Origin: Candidatus Zixiibacteriota bacterium
GTDB lineage: Bacteria; Zixibacteria; MSB-5A5; GN15; FEB-12
Direction: 5' to 3'
Assembly: GCA_034439475.1 (NCBI GenBank)
Contig: JAWXAN010000031.1
Coordinates: forward strand, 1-64,000
DNA: 64,000 nucleotides
Positions 9,257 to 52,851 of the stretch are shown here, in pieces. Within the stretch, counting starts at the first letter, position 1. The number at the start of each line of letters is the position of its first letter. A model generated the notes under the pieces. The model saw only the letters and a list, made by a program, of their open reading frames with translations, searched no databases and had not been told where the DNA came from. Made by a program: the position numbers and the translations under genes.

Positions 9257-9886
9257 TTAGTTGATAGGAAGCGCGCTCTGTGATCCATCCGAATTCGGAG
9301 CAGGTCCCCAGACCTTGACTTCGACTCGGCGATTACGAGAGTTCGATCCACGTGAGTCTGCCATGGTTATCGGTTTGCTTTCGCCGTAAGAAATATCAAA
9401 CATGCGATAGAGCATGACCCCAAACTGGTCGGCCAGGAAACGCTTCGAGGCATCGGACCGCCTTTGACCCAGCATCAGATTATAGTTCTGCGAGCCAGTG
9501 GCATCGGTATAACCGCTAAGTTCAACAATGGATTTCGGGGTTTCTTCCAATTTTCTGCCAGCTTCGGCCAAAACGCCTTCGCCTGTCTCACCGAGTTCAT
9601 CTGAATCAAAACCAAAATTTATTTCGCCTGTCCAGAGAACAACATAATCCTCGAATCCGGTGGCCTTGTTTATGGCTTTATCCGTTTTGGCATCGAGTTC
9701 AACTGCTAGCCTGTTGAGGCGTTCGACTTCGGCAGCAGTCGCAGCAGCCTGTTGGGCTACGGTCTGCACGCGCTCTGATGTTCGCGATTCTGACGAAGAG
9801 ATTTGCTGGTCGACATACGACTTTTTGACGCCACAACCCGCAAACAGGGCGAGCGCCAAAGTAATACCTATCAAGGTTGTTTTCAT
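9257..9886 (-). CDS. OmpA-family peptidoglycan-binding lipoprotein
   Basis: A 209-residue lipoprotein: signal MKTTLIGITLALALFAGC with lipobox FAGC, a coiled-coil-like Ala/Glu-rich segment, then an OmpA C-terminal domain. The domain shows the murein-binding pattern (FGFDSDEL, LSGYTDATGSQNYNL, RRSDASKRFL, NSRNRRVEV). It probably tethers the outer membrane to peptidoglycan, like Pal. The ATG at 9886 was chosen because AAGGA stands nine bases upstream; longer in-frame starts put that site inside the gene. It is followed by the bidirectional terminator. The importer genes upstream lie on the same strand 136 bases away. Confidence 0.9.
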   Translation of the reverse strand: MKTTLIGITLALALFAGCGVKKSYVDQQISSSESRTSERVQTVAQQAAATAAEVERLNRLAVELDAKTDKAINKATGFEDYVVLWTGEINFGFDSDELGETGEGVLAEAGRKLEETPKSIVELSGYTDATGSQNYNLMLGQRRSDASKRFLADQFGVMLYRMFDISYGESKPITMADSRGSNSRNRRVEVKVWGPAPNSDGSQSALPIN

Positions 9887-10022
9887 ACTGTAGCGTCCTT
9901 TCATTAAAGAGCTTGTGTAAAGATTTCTCATAAGTGGCCGCAATAGTACCTATTGGCCTTTTGGGTTATACCCCTGGTTTGCCGTCTCCGAACCAAGAAA
10001 AATGCAAACCGGCAGCGGCAGA

Positions 10023-10850
10023 CTATTGTTTGATGGCCCCGGCAGTGATACCGGAGACAATATATTTTTGCAATATGACAAAAAGAAGCAGAATTGGGAG
10101 GATTGCCAAAGTCGAGCCGGCCATAAGGTGTTGCCAATCAATTGCCTGATGCCCTTGGTACAACGCGAGCGCGACCGGGAGTGTGCGTAGATTTTCACTT
10201 GATGTCAAAATAAAGGGGAAGAAAAATGAATTCCAATTCGTAAAAAATACCTGTATTGCCAAAACAATAAGAACTGGTTTGCAGACAGGCATCACGACCC
10301 GCATAAGTATTCGCATCTCTCCAGCTCCGTCTATTCGAGCGGCTTCTTCCATAGCTGTGGGAATTGAATCAATATATTGCTTTACAAGGAATATCCCGAT
10401 CGGAGTCACAAGCCAGGGGATAATAAGCACGGTATACGAATCATAAACCCCTGCTTTGATTGACATCAGATACAGCGGAATAATCACAATATGCGACGGA
10501 ATAAAAAGAACAGCCAGTATAGTGACGAAAAGTAACTTATTCATAAACATTCGGTGTCTGGACAGGCTGTAGGCGGTCATAAAACAGAAGAGAATGTTCC
10601 CAATCGTGACCGCCAGCGCAACCACCACCGAATTGATGAACGGGCGTGCCAGATTATGGGTGGTTAGCAAATCGTGAAAATTAGACCATGTGAAAAGCGA
10701 ACTGACCAGCCCATCAAAATTGAGCGATGTCCCAGTTGGCAGGAAAGCCACACGGACCATCCATACCATCGGAAAGACCATCCCCAAAAAAAGAAGCGAA
10801 AGCGACGAATACTTTGCGATATTCATAGAGAGTGAGGACTGTCTTATCAT
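10023..10850 (-). CDS. ABC sugar importer permease (MalG type)
   Basis: Inner-membrane permease of 275 residues with about six hydrophobic segments and the EAA loop (EEAARIDGAGEMRILMRVV) that docks the ATPase. This is the MalG/UgpE-type partner in carbohydrate uptake-1 importers. It overlaps the upstream permease by 4 nt (ATGA), so the two are translationally coupled. No MalK-like ATPase follows: the next gene is the OmpA-like lipoprotein. The ATPase must come from elsewhere, as with shared MsmX-type ATPases in other bacteria. The sugar cannot be deduced. Confidence 0.9.
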   Translation of the reverse strand: MIRQSSLSMNIAKYSSLSLLFLGMVFPMVWMVRVAFLPTGTSLNFDGLVSSLFTWSNFHDLLTTHNLARPFINSVVVALAVTIGNILFCFMTAYSLSRHRMFMNKLLFVTILAVLFIPSHIVIIPLYLMSIKAGVYDSYTVLIIPWLVTPIGIFLVKQYIDSIPTAMEEAARIDGAGEMRILMRVVMPVCKPVLIVLAIQVFFTNWNSFFFPFILTSSENLRTLPVALALYQGHQAIDWQHLMAGSTLAILPILLLFVILQKYIVSGITAGAIKQ

Positions 10851-11710
10851 GGTTGCCCGCCCCTGCGCATGAGGAAAAACTGAATCATCGAAAAAACGGC
10901 AATAATAAGAAAGAGTATATAGGCCGCAGCTGAGGCATAGCCGAATTTGAAATCTGTAGTCAGACTTGTTTCATAAATGAAGTATACAAGCGTCGCGGTA
11001 TCGAATTTTCCTTTGGTCATGACAAATATCTCAGTGAAGACTTGAAATGACTTAATCGTATTGATGACAATTATATAGAGTCCGACCGGCCTCAAAAGCG
11101 GCAAAGTAATAGAGACAAACTGTCTCCATCGGCTCGCCCCTGCTATCTCTGCGGCCTCGTATAATTCAGTCGGAATAGCCTGAAGTCCCGCCAGAAATAT
11201 TAACATATAATATCCGACTGACATCCAGACATCCATCCCCATAATTGCATACAGAGCCGTCCCGTAATCGTAGAGGAAGCCATGCTCGGGAGGAGTTAGG
11301 TTAATCAATTCGGCCAGAAGTGATATGTAACCGCCACGCTGAAAGAGATTGCTGAAAACCAAGGCGATAACAACGATAGAGGTTAGCCAAGGGAGAAAGA
11401 ATCCGGCTCGAAACAGGGTACGACCTCTAAACGGCTTATGTACCAACAGCGCTAATCCCAGCGCTATGACAGTTGTTAGTGGAACTGTCCCGCCGATAAA
11501 AATGAAAGTATTCTTCATTGCCTGCAAAAAACCGGAGTCCGCAAAAAGATTGCGGTAATTTTCCAAACCGATATAGTGCGACTCACGAAACAGCTGATAG
11601 TCGGTGAAGCTCAATACAAGGGAATATCCGATAGGGAAGAGCCACAACAAGAGGAAGGCAATGATCCAAGGGGAGGAAAACCCGAGAGCGGCAAGTTGCC
11701 GGTGATTCAT
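10847..11710 (-). CDS. ABC sugar importer permease (MalF type)
   Basis: A 287-residue permease with six hydrophobic segments and the EAA motif (YEAAEIAGASRWRQFVSI). It pairs with the adjacent MalG-type protein as a heterodimeric channel for a carbohydrate importer. Four-nt overlaps link it to the binding protein upstream and to the second permease downstream, fixing the order binding protein, MalF type, MalG type. It lacks the large periplasmic loop of enteric MalF and resembles the shorter UgpA/LacF form. Confidence 0.9.
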   Translation of the reverse strand: MNHRQLAALGFSSPWIIAFLLLWLFPIGYSLVLSFTDYQLFRESHYIGLENYRNLFADSGFLQAMKNTFIFIGGTVPLTTVIALGLALLVHKPFRGRTLFRAGFFLPWLTSIVVIALVFSNLFQRGGYISLLAELINLTPPEHGFLYDYGTALYAIMGMDVWMSVGYYMLIFLAGLQAIPTELYEAAEIAGASRWRQFVSITLPLLRPVGLYIIVINTIKSFQVFTEIFVMTKGKFDTATLVYFIYETSLTTDFKFGYASAAAYILFLIIAVFSMIQFFLMRRGGQP

Positions 11711-12939
11711 TCGGCTTTAATCTTCGAGATGGCAATGCGGGCGTTGCGAAGCGGAGTCGCAATCAACCCGGAACCGAAAAGAGCATCTTCAACAGCTCTT
11801 TCAATTTCCTGCTCGATGGACGACCAATCAGGGTCAACCGGCGGGTATTTGCTCATTCGAATCTGACTGATGAATGACTGAAAATGGTTGTTCGAGCTGA
11901 AATATGGGTCGGCTTGGGCTTCAATGCTGGAGGGACAGGCCGCAAAGGCGGCTTTGCAAAAGCGGACCTGATTTTCAGCCGATGTAACAAATGCGATGAA
12001 TTTGGACGCGGCTTCTTTATTTTCGGACGCTTCATTAATTGCCAAAAATTCACCTCCCAAAAATGATCTACCGGGAAAATTAAGTCCGGGCATGATCGTC
12101 GACATTAAGTTAATCTTCCTGTTCTCCAGCGTGATACGCTTCAAAAGCCAATCACCGGACATGACATAGCCGACCTTGCCGTCGAGAAAAGCGTCTTCAA
12201 TCCCGCGCTGGTCCGCGACATAACCGCATGAGTCATGAAGCATTTTATAAAAGCGAAGCGATGCAATGGCCATATCCGACGCCACCAAACAATATTTGTT
12301 GTCTTCACTGAAAATCTGCGCTCCGGCTGTCCAAAAGAAGGGCAAAAACTTTTTATACAGTCGGTGCTTCTCGGCCGTATTTGAACCCCATCCGTATATT
12401 TCCTTGGAAAGCTGGTCGATCTTAAACGCGGATTCGCCGAGCTGAATTAAAGTCACCGGAACAAAATCCTCTCCATAGCCAGCTTTGGCTAAAAGGTCGC
12501 GGTTTCCAAAAATTACCCGCGTGCCGAGGATCCAAGGTCTTGCGTAGACAGTGTTCTTATATGTTGCGAGACCCCAGCCCTGGAATTTGTTGCTGTCGGC
12601 GGCGATAAACTGTCCCATCTCAGCCAGTTGACCAGCATCGGCAAATTTCGCTATCCAGTCAGAACCAAGCTCTACAATGTCAGGCCCGGTTTTCGATGCA
12701 AAGGCTATCGCAATCTTTTCCTGTCCATTGGCCCAGGTCAAATCAGTGATATTTATTTGGATGTCTGGATTCTCACGTTCAAAATCGCTCACCATCTCCT
12801 GTATCGCCGGTTTTATATCAGGATCAGTCCAAAATTGCCACCATTGCAGTGTTGTTTTTGCCTGAGCAGTATTAGTGATGCTAAAGGTGATAAACGCTGC
12901 CAGAAACAACGCAGATTCCATGGTGATTCTTTTAATCAT
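11707..12939 (-). CDS. Periplasmic sugar-binding protein of ABC importer
   Basis: A 410-residue family 1 extracellular solute-binding protein. It starts with a signal peptide ending in NTAQA, then the typical N-terminal lobe (LQWWQFWTDPDIKPAIQEMV, FERENPDIQI, KTGPDIVELGSDW) and the hinge-region pattern GKVGYVMSGDWL. It captures a sugar or related ligand in the periplasm for the two downstream permeases. The ATG at 12939 gives a slightly long signal; an internal ATG at 12921 would also leave a full signal peptide. A promoter candidate sits so close upstream that initiation at 12939 would be nearly leaderless, which favours 12921. Confidence 0.9.
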   Translation of the reverse strand: MIKRITMESALFLAAFITFSITNTAQAKTTLQWWQFWTDPDIKPAIQEMVSDFERENPDIQINITDLTWANGQEKIAIAFASKTGPDIVELGSDWIAKFADAGQLAEMGQFIAADSNKFQGWGLATYKNTVYARPWILGTRVIFGNRDLLAKAGYGEDFVPVTLIQLGESAFKIDQLSKEIYGWGSNTAEKHRLYKKFLPFFWTAGAQIFSEDNKYCLVASDMAIASLRFYKMLHDSCGYVADQRGIEDAFLDGKVGYVMSGDWLLKRITLENRKINLMSTIMPGLNFPGRSFLGGEFLAINEASENKEAASKFIAFVTSAENQVRFCKAAFAACPSSIEAQADPYFSSNNHFQSFISQIRMSKYPPVDPDWSSIEQEIERAVEDALFGSGLIATPLRNARIAISKIKAE

Positions 12940-13076: not shown

Positions 13077-13850
13077 ATGTCTGAATGGTTTGATATAACA
13101 AAACTTCCAATCCTTATCGCAACGGTGGTTTCTGTCGCGATTGTGCTTTATACGACTTATCACTCTAAAAGCCGTGACCGATTCACAATCCGTCAAATCC
13201 CCGGTCTGAAAGCCGTTGAGGAGGCTATTGGCCGCGCCACAGAAATGGCACGTCCGATTCTATTTACCCCCGGTTGGGGCGGAGATATCCAAAGACCAAC
13301 AACGATCGCATCGCTGAATATCCTCTCAAGCGTCGCCGAGAAAACCGCCGTCTATGATTGTGAGCTTATATTTCCAACCCATGACCCGGTTATTATGACA
13401 GTCGCCCAGGAGGTTGTCAGGGAAAGTTACATTCGAGCCGGAGTGCCGGAAAGGTTCAAGGAGAACAACATCCGTTATGTATCATCGTCGCAATTCGGCT
13501 ATGCTGCGGCTGTCGAAGGTATAATCAGCCGCACTAAGCCAGCCTCGATATTCCTTCTTGGCACATTCGAAGCCGAGTCCCTTATAATGGCCGAGACCGG
13601 CAACAGCGTCGGTGCCATTCAAATAGCCGGCACAGATTCAACAATCCAATTGGCCTTTTTTATCGTGGCCTGTGACTACACATTGATAGGCGAGGAGCTA
13701 TTTGCCGCTTCCGGCTATCTTTCAAACGATCGATCAATCCTGGCATCAGTGAGAGCGCAGGACATTCTCAAAGTGATTCTGGCCGCGCTTCTGGTTGTCG
13801 CGATGATTTCGGCTTCGTTCTCCCCGACTTCGAACTGGTGGAAAATCTGA
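13077..13850 (+). CDS. DUF6754-like membrane protein
   Basis: A 257-residue protein with a hydrophobic helix at about 11-27 and another near 231-250, flanking a soluble alpha/beta domain. Runs such as IPGLKAVEEAIGRATEM, GRPTTIASL-like and ETGNSVGAIQIAGTDST match what I recall of the DUF6754 family found in Chloroflexi, Planctomycetes and Zixibacteria; this was not searched. No catalytic motif is recognised. It is first in five genes with stop/start overlaps (13077-16024), so its job is probably within a membrane complex built by that cluster. The ATG at 13077 lacks a strong ribosome site. Function unknown. Confidence 0.8.
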   Translation: MSEWFDITKLPILIATVVSVAIVLYTTYHSKSRDRFTIRQIPGLKAVEEAIGRATEMARPILFTPGWGGDIQRPTTIASLNILSSVAEKTAVYDCELIFPTHDPVIMTVAQEVVRESYIRAGVPERFKENNIRYVSSSQFGYAAAVEGIISRTKPASIFLLGTFEAESLIMAETGNSVGAIQIAGTDSTIQLAFFIVACDYTLIGEELFAASGYLSNDRSILASVRAQDILKVILAALLVVAMISASFSPTSNWWKI

Positions 13851-14473
13851 TGCGCCGTAAAATTCCGCAAATAATCTGCTCTGTGGTCGGCATCCTGATG
13901 CTCGCATTATTTTTTAGCCGCCATCCAACCGCGCAAGCAATTAGCCAGACAATTCTCGTGGAATACTGGCAGATTATTTTCGCCTTCACACTTATCGTTG
14001 GTGTATTGAGCTTCATGCTCGGCCAGCTCCGCGGTATTGAGCGGGGAGAAGACCGCTTTTATAAAATTATCTCCTTGTCCGGTGTGGTTCTCATGCCCGT
14101 TCTGGCTCTTATTTGGGGTATCCGCGGCGGCACGCCATTTGTCTGGATATTTGACAATGTTCAGGCGCCTCTTCAATCCACTGTATTTGCGCTCCTCGCT
14201 TTTTTTGTGGCTTCGGCCTCGCTCAGAGGCTTTCGGGCGCGATCTCTGCCTGCCGCGATTCTTCTTTTTTCTGCCGCACTGATTCTCTTTAGTCGCTCGT
14301 ATTTAGGCGACTCAACCTTCGCGCCATTGTCAGAATTCTCCGATTGGATTCGCTCGTATCCATCAATGGCAGCCCGTCGCGCCATTCTTATCGGTATCGG
14401 ACTCGGATCTCTGACAACATCCCTGCGCGTTATATTAGGAATTGAACGCACATGGCTGGGAGGGGAGAGATGA
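13850..14473 (+). CDS. Unknown multi-pass membrane protein
   Basis: I do not recognise this 207-residue protein beyond its place in the DUF6754-type cluster. It shows about five to six hydrophobic segments (IICSVVGILMLALFF, IIFAFTLIVGVLSFMLG, GVVLMPVLALIWG, VFALLAFFVASASL, AAILLFSAALILF) and a basic loop after the fourth. The ATG at 13850 shares its A with the upstream TGA stop (TGATG) and has GGTGG about eight bases upstream; a GTG at 13838 is the alternative. Overlaps at both ends mean it is translated with its neighbours. An integral inner-membrane subunit of an unknown complex is inferred. Confidence 0.75.
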   Translation: MRRKIPQIICSVVGILMLALFFSRHPTAQAISQTILVEYWQIIFAFTLIVGVLSFMLGQLRGIERGEDRFYKIISLSGVVLMPVLALIWGIRGGTPFVWIFDNVQAPLQSTVFALLAFFVASASLRGFRARSLPAAILLFSAALILFSRSYLGDSTFAPLSEFSDWIRSYPSMAARRAILIGIGLGSLTTSLRVILGIERTWLGGER

Positions 14474-15282
14474 AAAAGCTCGAAACCCGGCACTATGCCT
14501 TCCTTGGTCTATTTCTTGTTGTCTTAATAACCATGCTTCTCAATATTTCCCCCGGGGTTGCCGTCTCGCCAGAGACGCAGAAACTGTATGATTACATCGA
14601 CTCCCTGCCGCCAGCATCCACACTGATAGTCTCATTTGATCATGAGGCGTCTGCTTTACCCGAAATCAATCCACTCTCACTTGCGATATTGAGGCATCTG
14701 TTCAGCAAAGGGCAGAGACTTATCGGTGTTTCTCTTTTGGCCGAAGGAACCGCCATTGGCTACCAGATAATTTCACGCACAGCCGAAGAATACAAAAAAG
14801 TCTACGGACAGGATTATGTATTCCTGGGATTCAAATCGCAGCAGATTGCGGCTATACTATCCATGGGCGAATCTATTGCCGCAACATATCCCCAGGATTA
14901 TATGGGTACTCACTATGCTGAACTTCCCCTGCTTGATAGTGTGAAGGACTATAGTGATGTTGCGGGGGTAATATCAATTGCCGATGGCTCTCTGACTGTG
15001 CAGTGGATAGAATACGGCAAAGCCCGCTTCAACGTACCCATACTTGGTGTAGTCACAGCCGCAATGGTCACAACCTATGACCCGTATTTGTCTTCCGGAC
15101 AGCTCACCGCCTTGCTCGGAGGACTCCGTGGCGCGGCTGAATACGAGACTTTGCTTGGGACAAAAGGGGGAGGGGTGCGAGGAATGGTCGCTCAGTCGAT
15201 CTCTCACCTATACATCATAGCCATGATCATTATCGGAAATATCCTCTATTTCAAATCCCGTCGGGTGGGAGGTCGAAGCTGA
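14470..15282 (+). CDS. Unknown membrane-anchored protein of DUF6754-type cluster
   Basis: A 270-residue protein with an N-terminal helix (AFLGLFLVVLITMLLNI), a large non-cytoplasmic domain and a C-terminal helix (YIIAMIIIGNILYF). The pattern YDYIDSLPPASTLIVSFD, DYVFLGFK and LGGLRGAAEYETLLG resembles a family I recall beside DUF6754 genes in several phyla; it has no assigned function to my knowledge. The ATG at 14470 overlaps the upstream TGA (ATGA) and follows GGGGAGAG, so it was preferred to the ATG at 14452. Its topology mirrors the first cluster gene: a soluble domain between two terminal helices. Confidence 0.78.
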   Translation: MKKLETRHYAFLGLFLVVLITMLLNISPGVAVSPETQKLYDYIDSLPPASTLIVSFDHEASALPEINPLSLAILRHLFSKGQRLIGVSLLAEGTAIGYQIISRTAEEYKKVYGQDYVFLGFKSQQIAAILSMGESIAATYPQDYMGTHYAELPLLDSVKDYSDVAGVISIADGSLTVQWIEYGKARFNVPILGVVTAAMVTTYDPYLSSGQLTALLGGLRGAAEYETLLGTKGGGVRGMVAQSISHLYIIAMIIIGNILYFKSRRVGGRS

Positions 15283-15896
15283 TGGACTGGGGAACACTTG
15301 TCGCTGGCCTGCTGACTCTGGCAATTCTAACATTTTTGTACGGGGATAACCCGATCTATAAATTTGCCGAGTCGCTTCTTATAGGCGTCTCGATTGGCTA
15401 CTTTTTAGTCATTACATGGACAAACACGCTCATGGACCTGCTTTTTGATCCTCTCCTTAACGAGGGCCGGCTCATGTTGTTAATCCCGCTTGTGCTTGGA
15501 GGACTCATGTTCCTCCGTTTTAATAAAAAAACCGCGAGTCTGTCCCGAATTCCTATTGCCATTCTGATCGGCTCCGGGGCAGGTGTGGCCATACCTGCGA
15601 TGCTTCAGGCCCGCACCATGTCTCAAATCTCTGCAACAGTTGCCCCGCTATGGAGCCCGTCGGGAATTCCTGATTATAACGCAATTGTTGTTCTGATTGG
15701 AGTGTTAGCCACACTATCCTATTTTTATTTCAGCCGCGAACACAGCGGGGTCTTAGGCAAATCAGCCAAAGTCGGGATTTATTTCCTAATGATTTTCTTT
15801 GGGGCGACTTTCGGATATACCGTCATGTCCCGAATGTCTACATTCATAGGGCGCATGGAATTTCTCTTGACGGACTTTCTCCATTTAGTCGGATGA
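15282..15896 (+). CDS. Unknown multi-pass membrane protein
   Basis: A 204-residue protein with about six hydrophobic segments (LVAGLLTLAILTFLYG, LIGVSIGYFLVITW, LMLLIPLVLGGLMFL, IAILIGSGAGVAIPAM, AIVVLIGVLATLSYFYF, IYFLMIFFGATFGY). I do not recognise a family. The ATG shares one base with the upstream TGA, and its own stop overlaps the zinc-ribbon ATG by 4 nt. This is the second polytopic subunit of the cluster; together with 13850-14473 it could form the membrane core to which the two single-domain proteins attach. That assembly is inference. Confidence 0.75.
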   Translation: MDWGTLVAGLLTLAILTFLYGDNPIYKFAESLLIGVSIGYFLVITWTNTLMDLLFDPLLNEGRLMLLIPLVLGGLMFLRFNKKTASLSRIPIAILIGSGAGVAIPAMLQARTMSQISATVAPLWSPSGIPDYNAIVVLIGVLATLSYFYFSREHSGVLGKSAKVGIYFLMIFFGATFGYTVMSRMSTFIGRMEFLLTDFLHLVG

Positions 15897-16024
15897 CCTG
15901 CCCGCGATGCAAAGTGGCAATGAACGAGATGAAGCGTAGCTTCCACAAACAGCGCAAATGGGTCTGTAAAGCGTGCGGAAAAGTCCGCTTTCAGCGGCCA
16001 AAACAAATCAAAAAAACCGACTGA
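15893..16024 (+). CDS. Small zinc-ribbon protein (43 residues)
   Basis: This short gene begins with ATGA overlapping the previous stop and encodes 43 residues with CPRC (3-6) and CKAC (25-28), a four-cysteine zinc ribbon, ending in a strongly basic tail (QRPKQIKKTD). No large enzyme is attached, so it may be a nucleic-acid or protein adaptor. The overlap with the fourth membrane gene and intact cysteine pairs support a real gene despite its size. It closes the five-gene cluster; the following DUF72 gene starts 50 bases later without overlap. Confidence 0.75.
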   Translation: MTCPRCKVAMNEMKRSFHKQRKWVCKACGKVRFQRPKQIKKTD

Positions 16025-16074: not shown

Positions 16075-16917
16075 GTGCAAACTATGCCGGATAAGATTCA
16101 AACTAATAATACGAGTGATTCGCAGCCTAAAGCCGACCGGCCAATTGGCTCTGTCCAAATCGGAACCTCAGGCTACAGCTTCGAAGACTGGCGCGGAAGC
16201 TTCTATCCTGATAAAATCGATAAGGGGAAAATGCTTGATTACTATGTTCAACATTTTCCCACTGTCGAAATAAACTCAACCTACTACGGAATCCCGCATC
16301 CGCGCGTGATGGCAAATCTGATAAAGAAAGCCCCTGATGGTTTTGATTCTCTTGCCAAGCTTCACCAGTCGTTTACCCATCGAAGATCTGACCTTGAAAC
16401 CGACCGGAAATCTTTCAGCGAAGCGATATTGCCGCTTGTAGAAGCAGGGAAGCTCTCTGGACTCTTGGCGCAGTTCCCGTATTCATTCAAATACAGCGCC
16501 GATAATCTCGACTATACCTCTATTTGCAGGGAGGCCTTTCCTAATGTTCCTCTCTTCGTCGAATTCAGACATAATAGCTGGGTAAACCGGACAATGTATG
16601 AGAGATTAAAGGGAGAAGGCGTAGGATATGTCTGCGTCGATGAACCTCAGCTTGACGGATTGCTCAAACCTGACGTTTTTGCAACCACAGAGACCGGCTA
16701 TATCAGACTCCATGGACGCAATGCAGAAAGCTGGTGGACCGGGGGAAGTCTTCGTTATGATTACCTGTATTCAAATGACGAGCTTCAGGAGTGGAACGCT
16801 AAAGTCAAGAGACTCACCGCCAAGGTGAACAAAGTCTATGTTCTATTCAATAACTGCCATCAGGGGAAAGCTGTCTCAAACGCCCGCCAATTTGTCGAAA
16901 TGACAAAATATCTTTGA
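16075..16917 (+). CDS. DUF72 family protein (YecE type)
   Basis: A 280-residue TIM-barrel-like protein of the DUF72/YecE family: IGTSGYSFEDWRGSFYP, VEINSTYYGIP, GLLAQFPYSFKY, FVEFRHNSW and YIRLHGRNAESWW are the family's conserved blocks. The function is not established; the fold resembles sugar- or phosphate-handling barrels. Start is GTG 16075 or ATG 16084, neither with a clear ribosome site. It follows the zinc ribbon by 50 bases and may share its transcript. Confidence 0.9.
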   Translation: MQTMPDKIQTNNTSDSQPKADRPIGSVQIGTSGYSFEDWRGSFYPDKIDKGKMLDYYVQHFPTVEINSTYYGIPHPRVMANLIKKAPDGFDSLAKLHQSFTHRRSDLETDRKSFSEAILPLVEAGKLSGLLAQFPYSFKYSADNLDYTSICREAFPNVPLFVEFRHNSWVNRTMYERLKGEGVGYVCVDEPQLDGLLKPDVFATTETGYIRLHGRNAESWWTGGSLRYDYLYSNDELQEWNAKVKRLTAKVNKVYVLFNNCHQGKAVSNARQFVEMTKYL

Positions 16918-43775: not shown

Positions 43776-44954
43776 ATGGGCATTCTCGTCAAAAGATTTC
43801 TTTTCATAAGCGTCGTTCTTATTCTTGCTGGAGCTGCCTTCGCAGGAGATAAGCATATTTGTTCGTCCTGTAATCGAACTATTGATGGCGGGCGGTATCT
43901 GGAAGTTGAAGGGAAATATTTCCACCCCGATCATTTCAAATGCGCCAACTGTAAAATCGCAATCGGCAGCAAACGCTATTACGAAAATGACGGAAAGTTT
44001 TACGATGACAAATGCTACACTGCCCTCTTTGTACCCCAGTGCGGTTATTGCCATGAATCAATTGTCGGCCGATATTTTGAAAACAGTGGCAAGCGCTATC
44101 ACGCGGAATGTTTCCAAAATAATATCGCCCCGAAATGCGCCGAATGCAGAAAACCGATTTTAGCCGAATACACCGTTTCTGACGCCAAAAGTTATCATGC
44201 CTACTGTTATAATCAAAATGTCGCTCTCCGCTGTACCCTCTGCGGCGATGTAATCGAAGGCGCCTATCTCAAAGACAACTGGGATAATGCGGTTCACAAA
44301 TCCCATCAGGGGGAAATCCCCCAATGCGAATATTGTCACCGCTTCATCTCGGAATCATCCGACGGTGGCCAAAGATATGCCGATGGCCGTCATATCTGCG
44401 GTTTGTGCCATAAATCTGCGGTGTCCACGCCTTCTGAAGCTAAGCAGATCATGTATAACGTCATAGCATCACTCGCGAACTACGGCATTGTTATCGACAT
44501 GGAAAAACTGCCGCTCCAGTTAGTTGACAAAGATGATTTGGTGACCGAGGCGCGCAAAGGCCGAAGTGACCTGCTTGGATTGACAAAGTACGACGAAGCC
44601 GGCTGGCTGGGCGGGCTGGTGAAGACAAAAAATCTGAACATTCTCATGCTTGATGGTCTCCCCCGCACGCTTTTCACTTCGGCGCTTGCTCATGAACTAA
44701 TGCATGTCTGGCAATATATGAATGCCCCGCTCAGAAATAACCCAAGCCTGTGCGAAGGCAGTTGCAACTACGCGGCGTATCTGATACTCCGCGAGATTCC
44801 AGGTTCAGAGTCACGGTTCTACGCGGAGAATATGATGAAAGATAAAGACCCCGATTATGGCGAGGGCTTCCGGCAGGTGAAGGAATATGTCGAAGCCAAC
44901 GGCATCCCGGCATGGCTTCACTGGCTCAAAGAGAATAAAGAGAAGATGTGGTAG
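43776..44954 (+). CDS. Secreted LIM-type zinc-finger protein with DA1-like metallopeptidase domain
   Basis: A 392-residue protein. Residues 1-23 form a signal peptide ending AFA. Residues 29-212 hold a series of LIM or LIM-like zinc fingers: C29/C32 with H50/H53/C56/C59 (the HPDHFKCANC form), C89/C92-H109/C112, C121/C124-H141/C144, C153/C156-H174, C184/C187 and C208/C211. The C-terminal domain has AHELMH (HExxH, 306-310) and Glu327 in CEGSCNYAAYL, the spacing of the DA1-like peptidase domain known from plant DA1 growth regulators, where LIM and peptidase also occur in this order. I infer a periplasmic or exported zinc protease with reducing or metal-rich fingers. It stands alone on the plus strand. 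Confidence 0.85.
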   Translation: MGILVKRFLFISVVLILAGAAFAGDKHICSSCNRTIDGGRYLEVEGKYFHPDHFKCANCKIAIGSKRYYENDGKFYDDKCYTALFVPQCGYCHESIVGRYFENSGKRYHAECFQNNIAPKCAECRKPILAEYTVSDAKSYHAYCYNQNVALRCTLCGDVIEGAYLKDNWDNAVHKSHQGEIPQCEYCHRFISESSDGGQRYADGRHICGLCHKSAVSTPSEAKQIMYNVIASLANYGIVIDMEKLPLQLVDKDDLVTEARKGRSDLLGLTKYDEAGWLGGLVKTKNLNILMLDGLPRTLFTSALAHELMHVWQYMNAPLRNNPSLCEGSCNYAAYLILREIPGSESRFYAENMMKDKDPDYGEGFRQVKEYVEANGIPAWLHWLKENKEKMW

Positions 44955-51834: not shown

Positions 51835-52221
51835 TTAGATCGTCGATTCCGATTTCACACAACAGCCCTCGCATGATTCACAAGGACCATCGCATTTATC
51901 TTCACAGACCATCGTGCAGACTGCCGCCTCAGTCGCTACTGCCAGAGTAGAGACTTCCGTAGAAGCAGTCAGCGAAGCGCCAGCTCCACACTGGCTCGGA
52001 TCACATGGCTGACACGGCCCAACACACGAGCCGGGCGGACATGGTTCGCAGCAGCAGCCGCCATCTGATGCGGCGCCCGAAGTTGTGGCTGTATTCATAG
52101 CACAGCCGAGAGCGGTTGAGCACAAGGTCTCAGTTGTCGAGGTGGATGACTTCGATGCGCCCAAAGCTACGAATAAACCGGCGCAAACGATAACACCAGA
52201 TAGGATGTTCTTAAATGACAT
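51835..52221 (-). CDS. Secreted cysteine-rich small protein
   Basis: A 128-residue protein with an N-terminal signal (ILSGVIVCAGLFVALGA) and 17 Cys after it in clusters (GGCCCEPCPPGSC, CQPCDPSQC, CEDKCDGPCESCEGCC). Such density suggests metal binding (metallothionein-like) or many disulfides. TAAGGAG lies seven bases upstream of the ATG and a terminator follows. The family is not recognised. The next gene upstream also encodes a small exported protein with Cys pairs, so they may act together. Confidence 0.75.
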   Translation of the reverse strand: MSFKNILSGVIVCAGLFVALGASKSSTSTTETLCSTALGCAMNTATTSGAASDGGCCCEPCPPGSCVGPCQPCDPSQCGAGASLTASTEVSTLAVATEAAVCTMVCEDKCDGPCESCEGCCVKSESTI

Positions 52222-52338: not shown

Positions 52339-52785
52339 TTAAACGGTGGTCGGCGGACCACGGAGAGTAAATGAAAAGTCATAGAGAAGCTGATTGCTGA
52401 GCGGCGGCGCGTGGGTATCATAGCCATGAATATCAAAAACCGGCCGCTCGATGAATATCTCGGAATAAGTAAAATCAAGATCGTCATTTGAATCTGTCTG
52501 GAGAGTCAGGACAAAAGAGGGCGTGAAAGTGACTTCAACCGAAACAAAACAACAGGAAGTAACACCCGAAGACTGTTCGGATTTTGAACAATCGTCCGCC
52601 ATAGCGGCGCTACAACTGGTGACTCCGCACTCAAAGTTGTCAGCCGACTCGGGAGCAAACTCGCAACTGCCTTTGGGACATAGCACTATTCCGCCATTCA
52701 CGGCTTGCAGTGAAATCAGAGAGAATACCGCAATAGCTATAAGCGTCATTAATGAAGCCGATTCAGTTTTTGGTCGATTTGTCAT
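52339..52785 (-). CDS. Small exported protein with conserved Cys pairs
   Basis: A 148-residue protein with an N-terminal helix (LMTLIAIAVFSLISLQAV) and seven Cys in a short region after it (LCPKGSC, FECGVTSC, DDC, SCC). The end RGPPTTV resembles small exported proteins I recall from metal-related operons; this is weak. Start ATG 52785 or ATG 52800; neither has a good ribosome site. The first codons are duplicated upstream (see repeat at 52768-52851). Confidence 0.6.
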   Translation of the reverse strand: MTNRPKTESASLMTLIAIAVFSLISLQAVNGGIVLCPKGSCEFAPESADNFECGVTSCSAAMADDCSKSEQSSGVTSCCFVSVEVTFTPSFVLTLQTDSNDDLDFTYSEIFIERPVFDIHGYDTHAPPLSNQLLYDFSFTLRGPPTTV

Positions 52786-52851
52786 ACCATTATTAAACAT
52801 TAAATATTTTCAAACTGGTAATAGTTCCGCTTTTGGTCGATTTGTCATACC
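52768..52851. repeat. 21-bp direct repeat spanning a start codon
   Basis: The 21-bp segment 52768-52788 recurs at 52831-52851. On the minus strand each copy begins a reading frame MTNRPK: the downstream copy is the start of the exported protein, the upstream copy opens a 12-codon frame ending in TGA. Confidence 0.8.

Follow-up and report, generated by a model that had tools for sequence, protein, structure and literature searches.

A conserved four-gene DUF6754 membrane module in Zixibacteria and Poribacteria

Gene organization at the locus

The window (the whole stretch of 64,000 nucleotides analyzed here, which belongs to a Zixibacteria genome) carries on its forward strand, from position 13077 to 16024, five open reading frames, coding for four membrane proteins and then a CPRC/CKAC zinc ribbon. 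We refer to them as g1 to g5. The genes of the locus and its closest neighbors, with the basis of each description, are as follows:

10023-11710: two ABC permeases (PF00528), after the solute-binding protein gene
11707..12939, minus strand: extracellular solute-binding protein (PF01547), divergent from g1 and having a 137-bp intergenic region in common with it
13077..13850, plus strand: g1, DUF6754 protein, 257 aa (PF20539, AlphaFold2 model, topology counts)
13850..14473, plus strand: g2, six-helix membrane protein, 207 aa (topology, conserved position in the module)
14470..15282, plus strand: g3, predicted transmembrane (TM) helix, extracytoplasmic alpha/beta domain, and TM helix, 270 aa (AlphaFold2 model, topology)
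15282..15896, plus strand: g4, six-helix membrane protein, 204 aa (topology, conserved position in the module)
15893..16024, plus strand: g5, basic zinc ribbon (CPRC...CKAC), 43 aa (motif conserved across loci)
16075..16917, plus strand: DUF72 (YecE-like) protein (PF01904; E value, 1.6e-60), downstream of g5 and often found behind the zinc ribbon

The junctions read TGATG (g1/g2), ATGA (g2/g3), TGATG (g3/g4), and ATGA (g4/g5), that is, overlaps of 1, 4, 1, and 4 nt, so that the claim of an earlier sequence-only reading of this DNA, overlaps of 1 to 4 nt at every junction, was borne out with corrected gene starts. Among window-type loci, the first three overlaps were kept in 38 of 50 (g1/g2), 38 of 53 (g2/g3), and 39 of 53 (g3/g4) cases, a conservation that exceeds chance. 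The g4/g5 overlap was kept in just 7 of 42 loci, a short gap being the usual arrangement.

Distribution and conservation of the module

The window's genome contains five DUF6754 genes, each at the head of a complete set with g2, g3, and g4: contig C23 has three sets in tandem, contig C54 has one, and the fifth is the window locus. DUF6754 was present in all 133 sampled genomes of the window's phylum, most of them with 3 to 6 copies, as well as in all 59 Poribacteria, usually as one copy, and in none of 14 control genomes. The order g1-g2-g3-g4 was the same in 88 complete modules (102 after adding further families of the phylum), and the neighborhood is therefore shared rather than scattered, as the idea of a conserved cluster had predicted. 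Four loci (L006, L007, L014, and L039), whose records bear the names FCB group, Calditrichota, Calditrichaeota, and Ignavibacterium, gave genome tallies equal to those of window-phylum genomes and are probably mislabeled, so that the evidence for the module covers two phyla.

The pairwise distances of the g1 to g4 proteins covaried (r = 0.85 to 0.92 over 99 modules, paralogues included), in part because of a shared species history, but the modules of any one genome remain whole sets. In the g1 tree, window-type modules formed a clade of their own (36 members; support, 1.0). No gene fusions between subunits were found among the collected modules. Spread by phage or plasmid was rejected, since viral contigs and plasmids yielded no relatives of the module. 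The genes g1 to g4 are a vertically maintained module that exists in several paralogous copies, and these four genes are the core unit, with the zinc ribbon outside it.

Protein families, topology, and predicted folds

The g1 protein is a full-length member of PF20539 (DUF6754), with 335.4 bits against a curated cutoff of 27 bits (E value, 2.4e-100; profile positions 3 to 249 of 257). No match to curated Pfam and NCBIfam models was found for g2, g3, or g4; of the earlier suggestion that g1 and g3 both belong to DUF families, the part on g1 stands and the part on g3 does not. Conserved motifs were FxAFRARNxEA and GIERxxLG in g2 and FLYxDNPxYKxxE and GYTVMxRxSxxxGR in g4. DUF6754 is already catalogued as a Pfam domain without function, and our literature search for DUF6754 and PF20539 returned no paper naming the family and no description of a biochemical activity. 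The PF20539 entry describes a single domain and, as far as we know, does not contain the four-gene module, its sidedness, or the MutL link described below.

Sidedness was predicted from Lys plus Arg (positive-inside) counts in the loops of about 100 members per family (114 for g1). In g1, there were 4.8 positive residues just after TM1 and 0.4 before it, which places the soluble domain on the predicted cytoplasmic side and gives a predicted layout of an outside N terminus, one TM helix, a cytoplasmic alpha/beta domain, and a C-terminal TM helix. The g3 protein, with 2.7 positives before TM1, 0.8 after it, and 3.8 after TM2, is predicted to have its soluble domain outside the cytoplasm. By the same computed counts, g2 is predicted to be N-in and g4 N-out, and hence both the g1/g3 and the g2/g4 pairs have opposite predicted orientations in the membrane. 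The alternation of soluble and polytopic proteins noted from the sequence was thus confirmed, although the soluble domains of g1 and g3 are predicted to lie on opposite sides.

Many g1 proteins of the tandem and Poribacterial modules have an apparent signal peptide and an FnIII-like stretch at the N terminus (seen by eye; Pfam matches were not significant), and one Poribacterial g1 (L099:8343-10298) has LysM domains (E value, 2.5e-11) N-terminal to its TM helix and DUF6754 domain. Signal peptides or LysM domains on the outside in these relatives provide independent support for a cytoplasmic DUF6754 domain. The window-type g1, of 257 aa, is devoid of any wall-binding domain. The LysM-bearing protein is the product of a second, divergent Poribacterial copy.

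The AlphaFold2 model of g3 had a pLDDT of 93.3 and a pTM of 0.87, and that of g1 was moderate (pLDDT, 80.4). Both models had the same order of elements, namely, TM helix, helix, six strand-helix units, and TM helix, a match that is suggestive. The pairs g1/g3 and g2/g4 showed no significant homology by hhalign, trimmed and global runs included, and we do not claim that they arose by inverted duplication. Foldseek searches of the g1 and g3 models against solved structures in the PDB gave generic Rossmann-like matches, none of them at an E value of ≤0.001, and a sequence profile search against PDB sequences gave nothing meaningful. By probability, the best match of g1 was the RCK domain of MthK (2aej_B; E value, 6.4e-3; probability, 1.00; TM-score, 0.32). 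Like it, g1 has a predicted membrane-tethered cytoplasmic alpha/beta domain. However, with TM-scores of 0.32 to 0.37, this E value, and no sequence match, the fold of g1 does not match those of solved RCK domains significantly, as a place in RCK/TrkA-N would require, and the resemblance is at most a works-like analogy.

The zinc ribbon

The consensus of g5, MxCPRCKxxMxExKRSFHKQRKWVCPKCGxVRFQ, was found in 30 loci, the window included, and 13 of another 20 loci, drawn from other families of the phylum, had a counterpart, which indicates that g5 is ancient in Zixibacteria. Counterparts of the zinc ribbon were thus present elsewhere, in more than 40 loci, as the sequence-only reading had anticipated, but its proposal that the ribbon is a general part of the complex was not supported: g5 occurs behind the window-type module only, does not accompany the four sister modules of the genome, is not present in Poribacteria, rarely overlaps g4, and twice stands beside DUF72 instead. 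It is also missing in one subclade (L019, L024, L030, and L053). We conclude that g5 is a lineage-specific accessory and not a core part.

With two CxxC knuckles in about 43 aa, g5 resembles the small zinc ribbons Zn_ribbon_TFIIB (PF13453) and YnfU (NF038384), but it scored below all curated Pfam and NCBIfam cutoffs, those of these two families included (20 bits against 22 and 16.4 bits against 36, respectively), and differs from them by its conserved basic loop, KRSFHKQRKW. The strongly basic character of this conserved loop (KRSFHKQRKWVCPKCG) would be no less suited to the binding of nucleic acids or phospholipids than to a role as adaptor. Along these lines, g5 might work with DUF72 or in some other downstream process (nucleic-acid binding), its only tie to the module being cotranscription, an explanation that we regard as plausible, if somewhat doubtful. 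The conserved, highly basic loop, the overlap with g4 in so few loci, and two loci (L035 and L136) in which g5 is apart from g4 and followed by DUF72 speak for it, but in four others (L008, L015, L020, and L139), g5 follows the module with no adjacent DUF72.

Genomic neighbors and the MutL/GlmL-like ATPase

The divergent solute-binding protein and the two permeases flanked the window-type module in 35 loci, and the linkage to the solute-binding protein was also found in other families of the phylum with a differing wider neighborhood. This operon (10023-12939), which diverges from the module throughout the phylum, is without an ATPase gene. An OmpA-like gene at 9257-9943 comes after the permeases. 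The surroundings of the window copy, with D-Ala-D-Ala carboxypeptidase and OmpA genes nearby, were partly syntenic, broadly, within the phylum. The Poribacterial modules had ordinary metabolic genes as neighbors (DHQ synthase, sulfatase, and a TIM barrel), not common to Zixibacteria.

The tandem arrays adjoin a gene for a MutL/GlmL-like actin-fold ATPase (PF13941; 432 bits), whose 375-aa partner, c1, has weak biotin/lipoyl-like barrels. In five families (L069, L071, L081, L082, and L083), MutL and c1 are directly upstream of the arrays and co-directional with them; in the window's family (L054 and L078), they are transcribed divergently from the array and are linked to TolQRAB. Gene coordinates placed MutL at 0.9 to 4.4 kb from a DUF6754 gene in 20 more genomes. 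MutL and the solute-binding protein are linked to different copies of the module, and neither is linked to all of them.

MutL was near-universal (56 of 61 relatives and 24 of 26 genomes in a mixed set), while glutamate mutase E (PF06368) exceeded its cutoff in only 3 of 41 relative genomes and was absent from the window's genome, in which MutL is probably not part of a glutamate mutase system. The single gene adjoining the tandem modules is like the glutamate mutase accessory ATPase (PF13941, MutL/GlmL), but here, it mostly occurs without glutamate mutase E. Given this near-universal MutL and the rarity of glutamate mutase E, MutL probably works with something else in these genomes, and the DUF6754 complex would be the best candidate partner.

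On contig C23 of the window's genome (L054:615-6024), the genes for the MutL/GlmL-like ATPase, for TolQ/TolR, and for two proteins of 247 aa (TM) and 379 aa (barrel) form one block, and the MutL-c7-c1-TolQRAB block is kept across several families of the phylum, with glutamate mutase mostly absent. Some genomes have another copy of MutL within open frames of 933 to 982 aa, possibly fused to another domain (G065:C109, G082:C15, and G083:C26).

Proposed function of the complex

The genome evidence argues that g1 to g4 very probably form one obligate four-subunit inner-membrane complex. The common order in 102 modules, the five paralogous copies, and the covariation of the four proteins (r = 0.85 to 0.92) all support the membrane complex first suggested by the sequence. 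The contrary explanation, that there is no complex and the four membrane genes are neighbors through lineage synteny only, would draw on the partial synteny around the window across the phylum, but we consider it very improbable, since the five paralogues of a genome, and also a second phylum with otherwise different neighbors, have kept the gene order, and the start/stop overlaps are conserved.

What such a complex does is less certain. We tentatively favor an envelope transport or remodeling machine, a reading that falls just short of an even chance and, as no significant structural relative was found, is drawn from architecture alone. A rather unlikely alternative is a ligand-gated signaling or regulatory complex, in which g3 would sense, g2 and g4 would relay, and DUF6754 would give the output via a partner, for example, MutL or the zinc ribbon. 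The presence of an alpha/beta domain on either predicted face of the membrane, the divergent solute-binding protein gene, multicopy paralogues with conserved cores, and the regulatory RCK domain as the best, weak fold match of g1 would all fit signaling, but the RCK similarity does not reach significance, neither the modules nor the adjacent genes have a known output domain (kinase, cyclase, or HTH), and the 12 TM helices of g2 and g4 exceed what a relay needs. Somewhat less probable still would be a purely structural scaffold that links peptidoglycan and Tol-Pal to the inner membrane; MutL would then act as an actin-fold organizer, as PilM, FtsA, or MreB do with their membrane partners. The extracytoplasmic LysM and FnIII-like regions of g1, the MutL-c7-c1-TolQRAB cluster adjoining the arrays in f1, and the carboxypeptidase and OmpA genes close to the window copy are consistent with a scaffold; against it, the window-type g1 has no domain to bind the wall, Tol-Pal is not adjacent in the families with co-directional MutL-c1-module arrays, and the strong conservation of the alpha/beta domains suggests ligand binding.

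The four subunits of the complex are probably made by coupled translation. Under the transport or remodeling reading, the membrane core of the complex would be formed by g2 and g4, with six helices each. On the inner face, DUF6754 would bind either a ligand in the cytoplasm or the MutL-type ATPase; on the outer face, the g3 domain would bind a periplasmic ligand, and the states on both faces would be coupled. In tandem and Poribacterial modules, the N terminus of g1 may reach out to the cell wall via its FnIII-like or LysM domains. The paralogous copies would serve different ligands, being specialized by extracytoplasmic additions and by partners, and the window copy would represent the type linked to a solute-binding protein, the zinc ribbon being its cytoplasmic accessory, specific to the lineage.

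The anatomy of the module was matched by no known system with which we compared it (by fold, for g1 and g3) and was not found in the literature searched. More speculatively, and we would hold this to be improbable as a whole, the module could stand for a novel class of inner-membrane complexes that are energy coupled and occur universally in Zixibacteria and Poribacteria, with an inside-out pair (g1 and g4 N-out, g3 and g2 N-in), like-folded domains on opposite faces, a repurposed GlmL/MutL ATPase that drives or assembles it, and a LysM/FnIII-like wall tether. Every sampled genome of the two phyla has between one and six copies of the module. Three of its four subunits are without a curated family, and none of the four has a known solved relative; the conservation across two phyla suggests a basic, indispensable envelope function. 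The tight four-gene definition, the predicted sidedness, and the links to MutL and to the solute-binding protein make the proposal directly testable, and a role of MutL/GlmL-type ATPases outside cobalamin-dependent mutases is suggested.

Other features of the window

Two further observations concern other parts of the window. The product of the gene at 43776-44954 is secreted and contains several LIM-like Cys/His knuckles as well as a HELMH motif at its C terminus; by eye, it resembles a DA1-type LIM metallopeptidase. On the minus strand, two adjacent genes at 51835-52221 and 52339-52800 code for small proteins, the first of which is very cysteine rich (CCCEPCPPGSCVGPCQPC).
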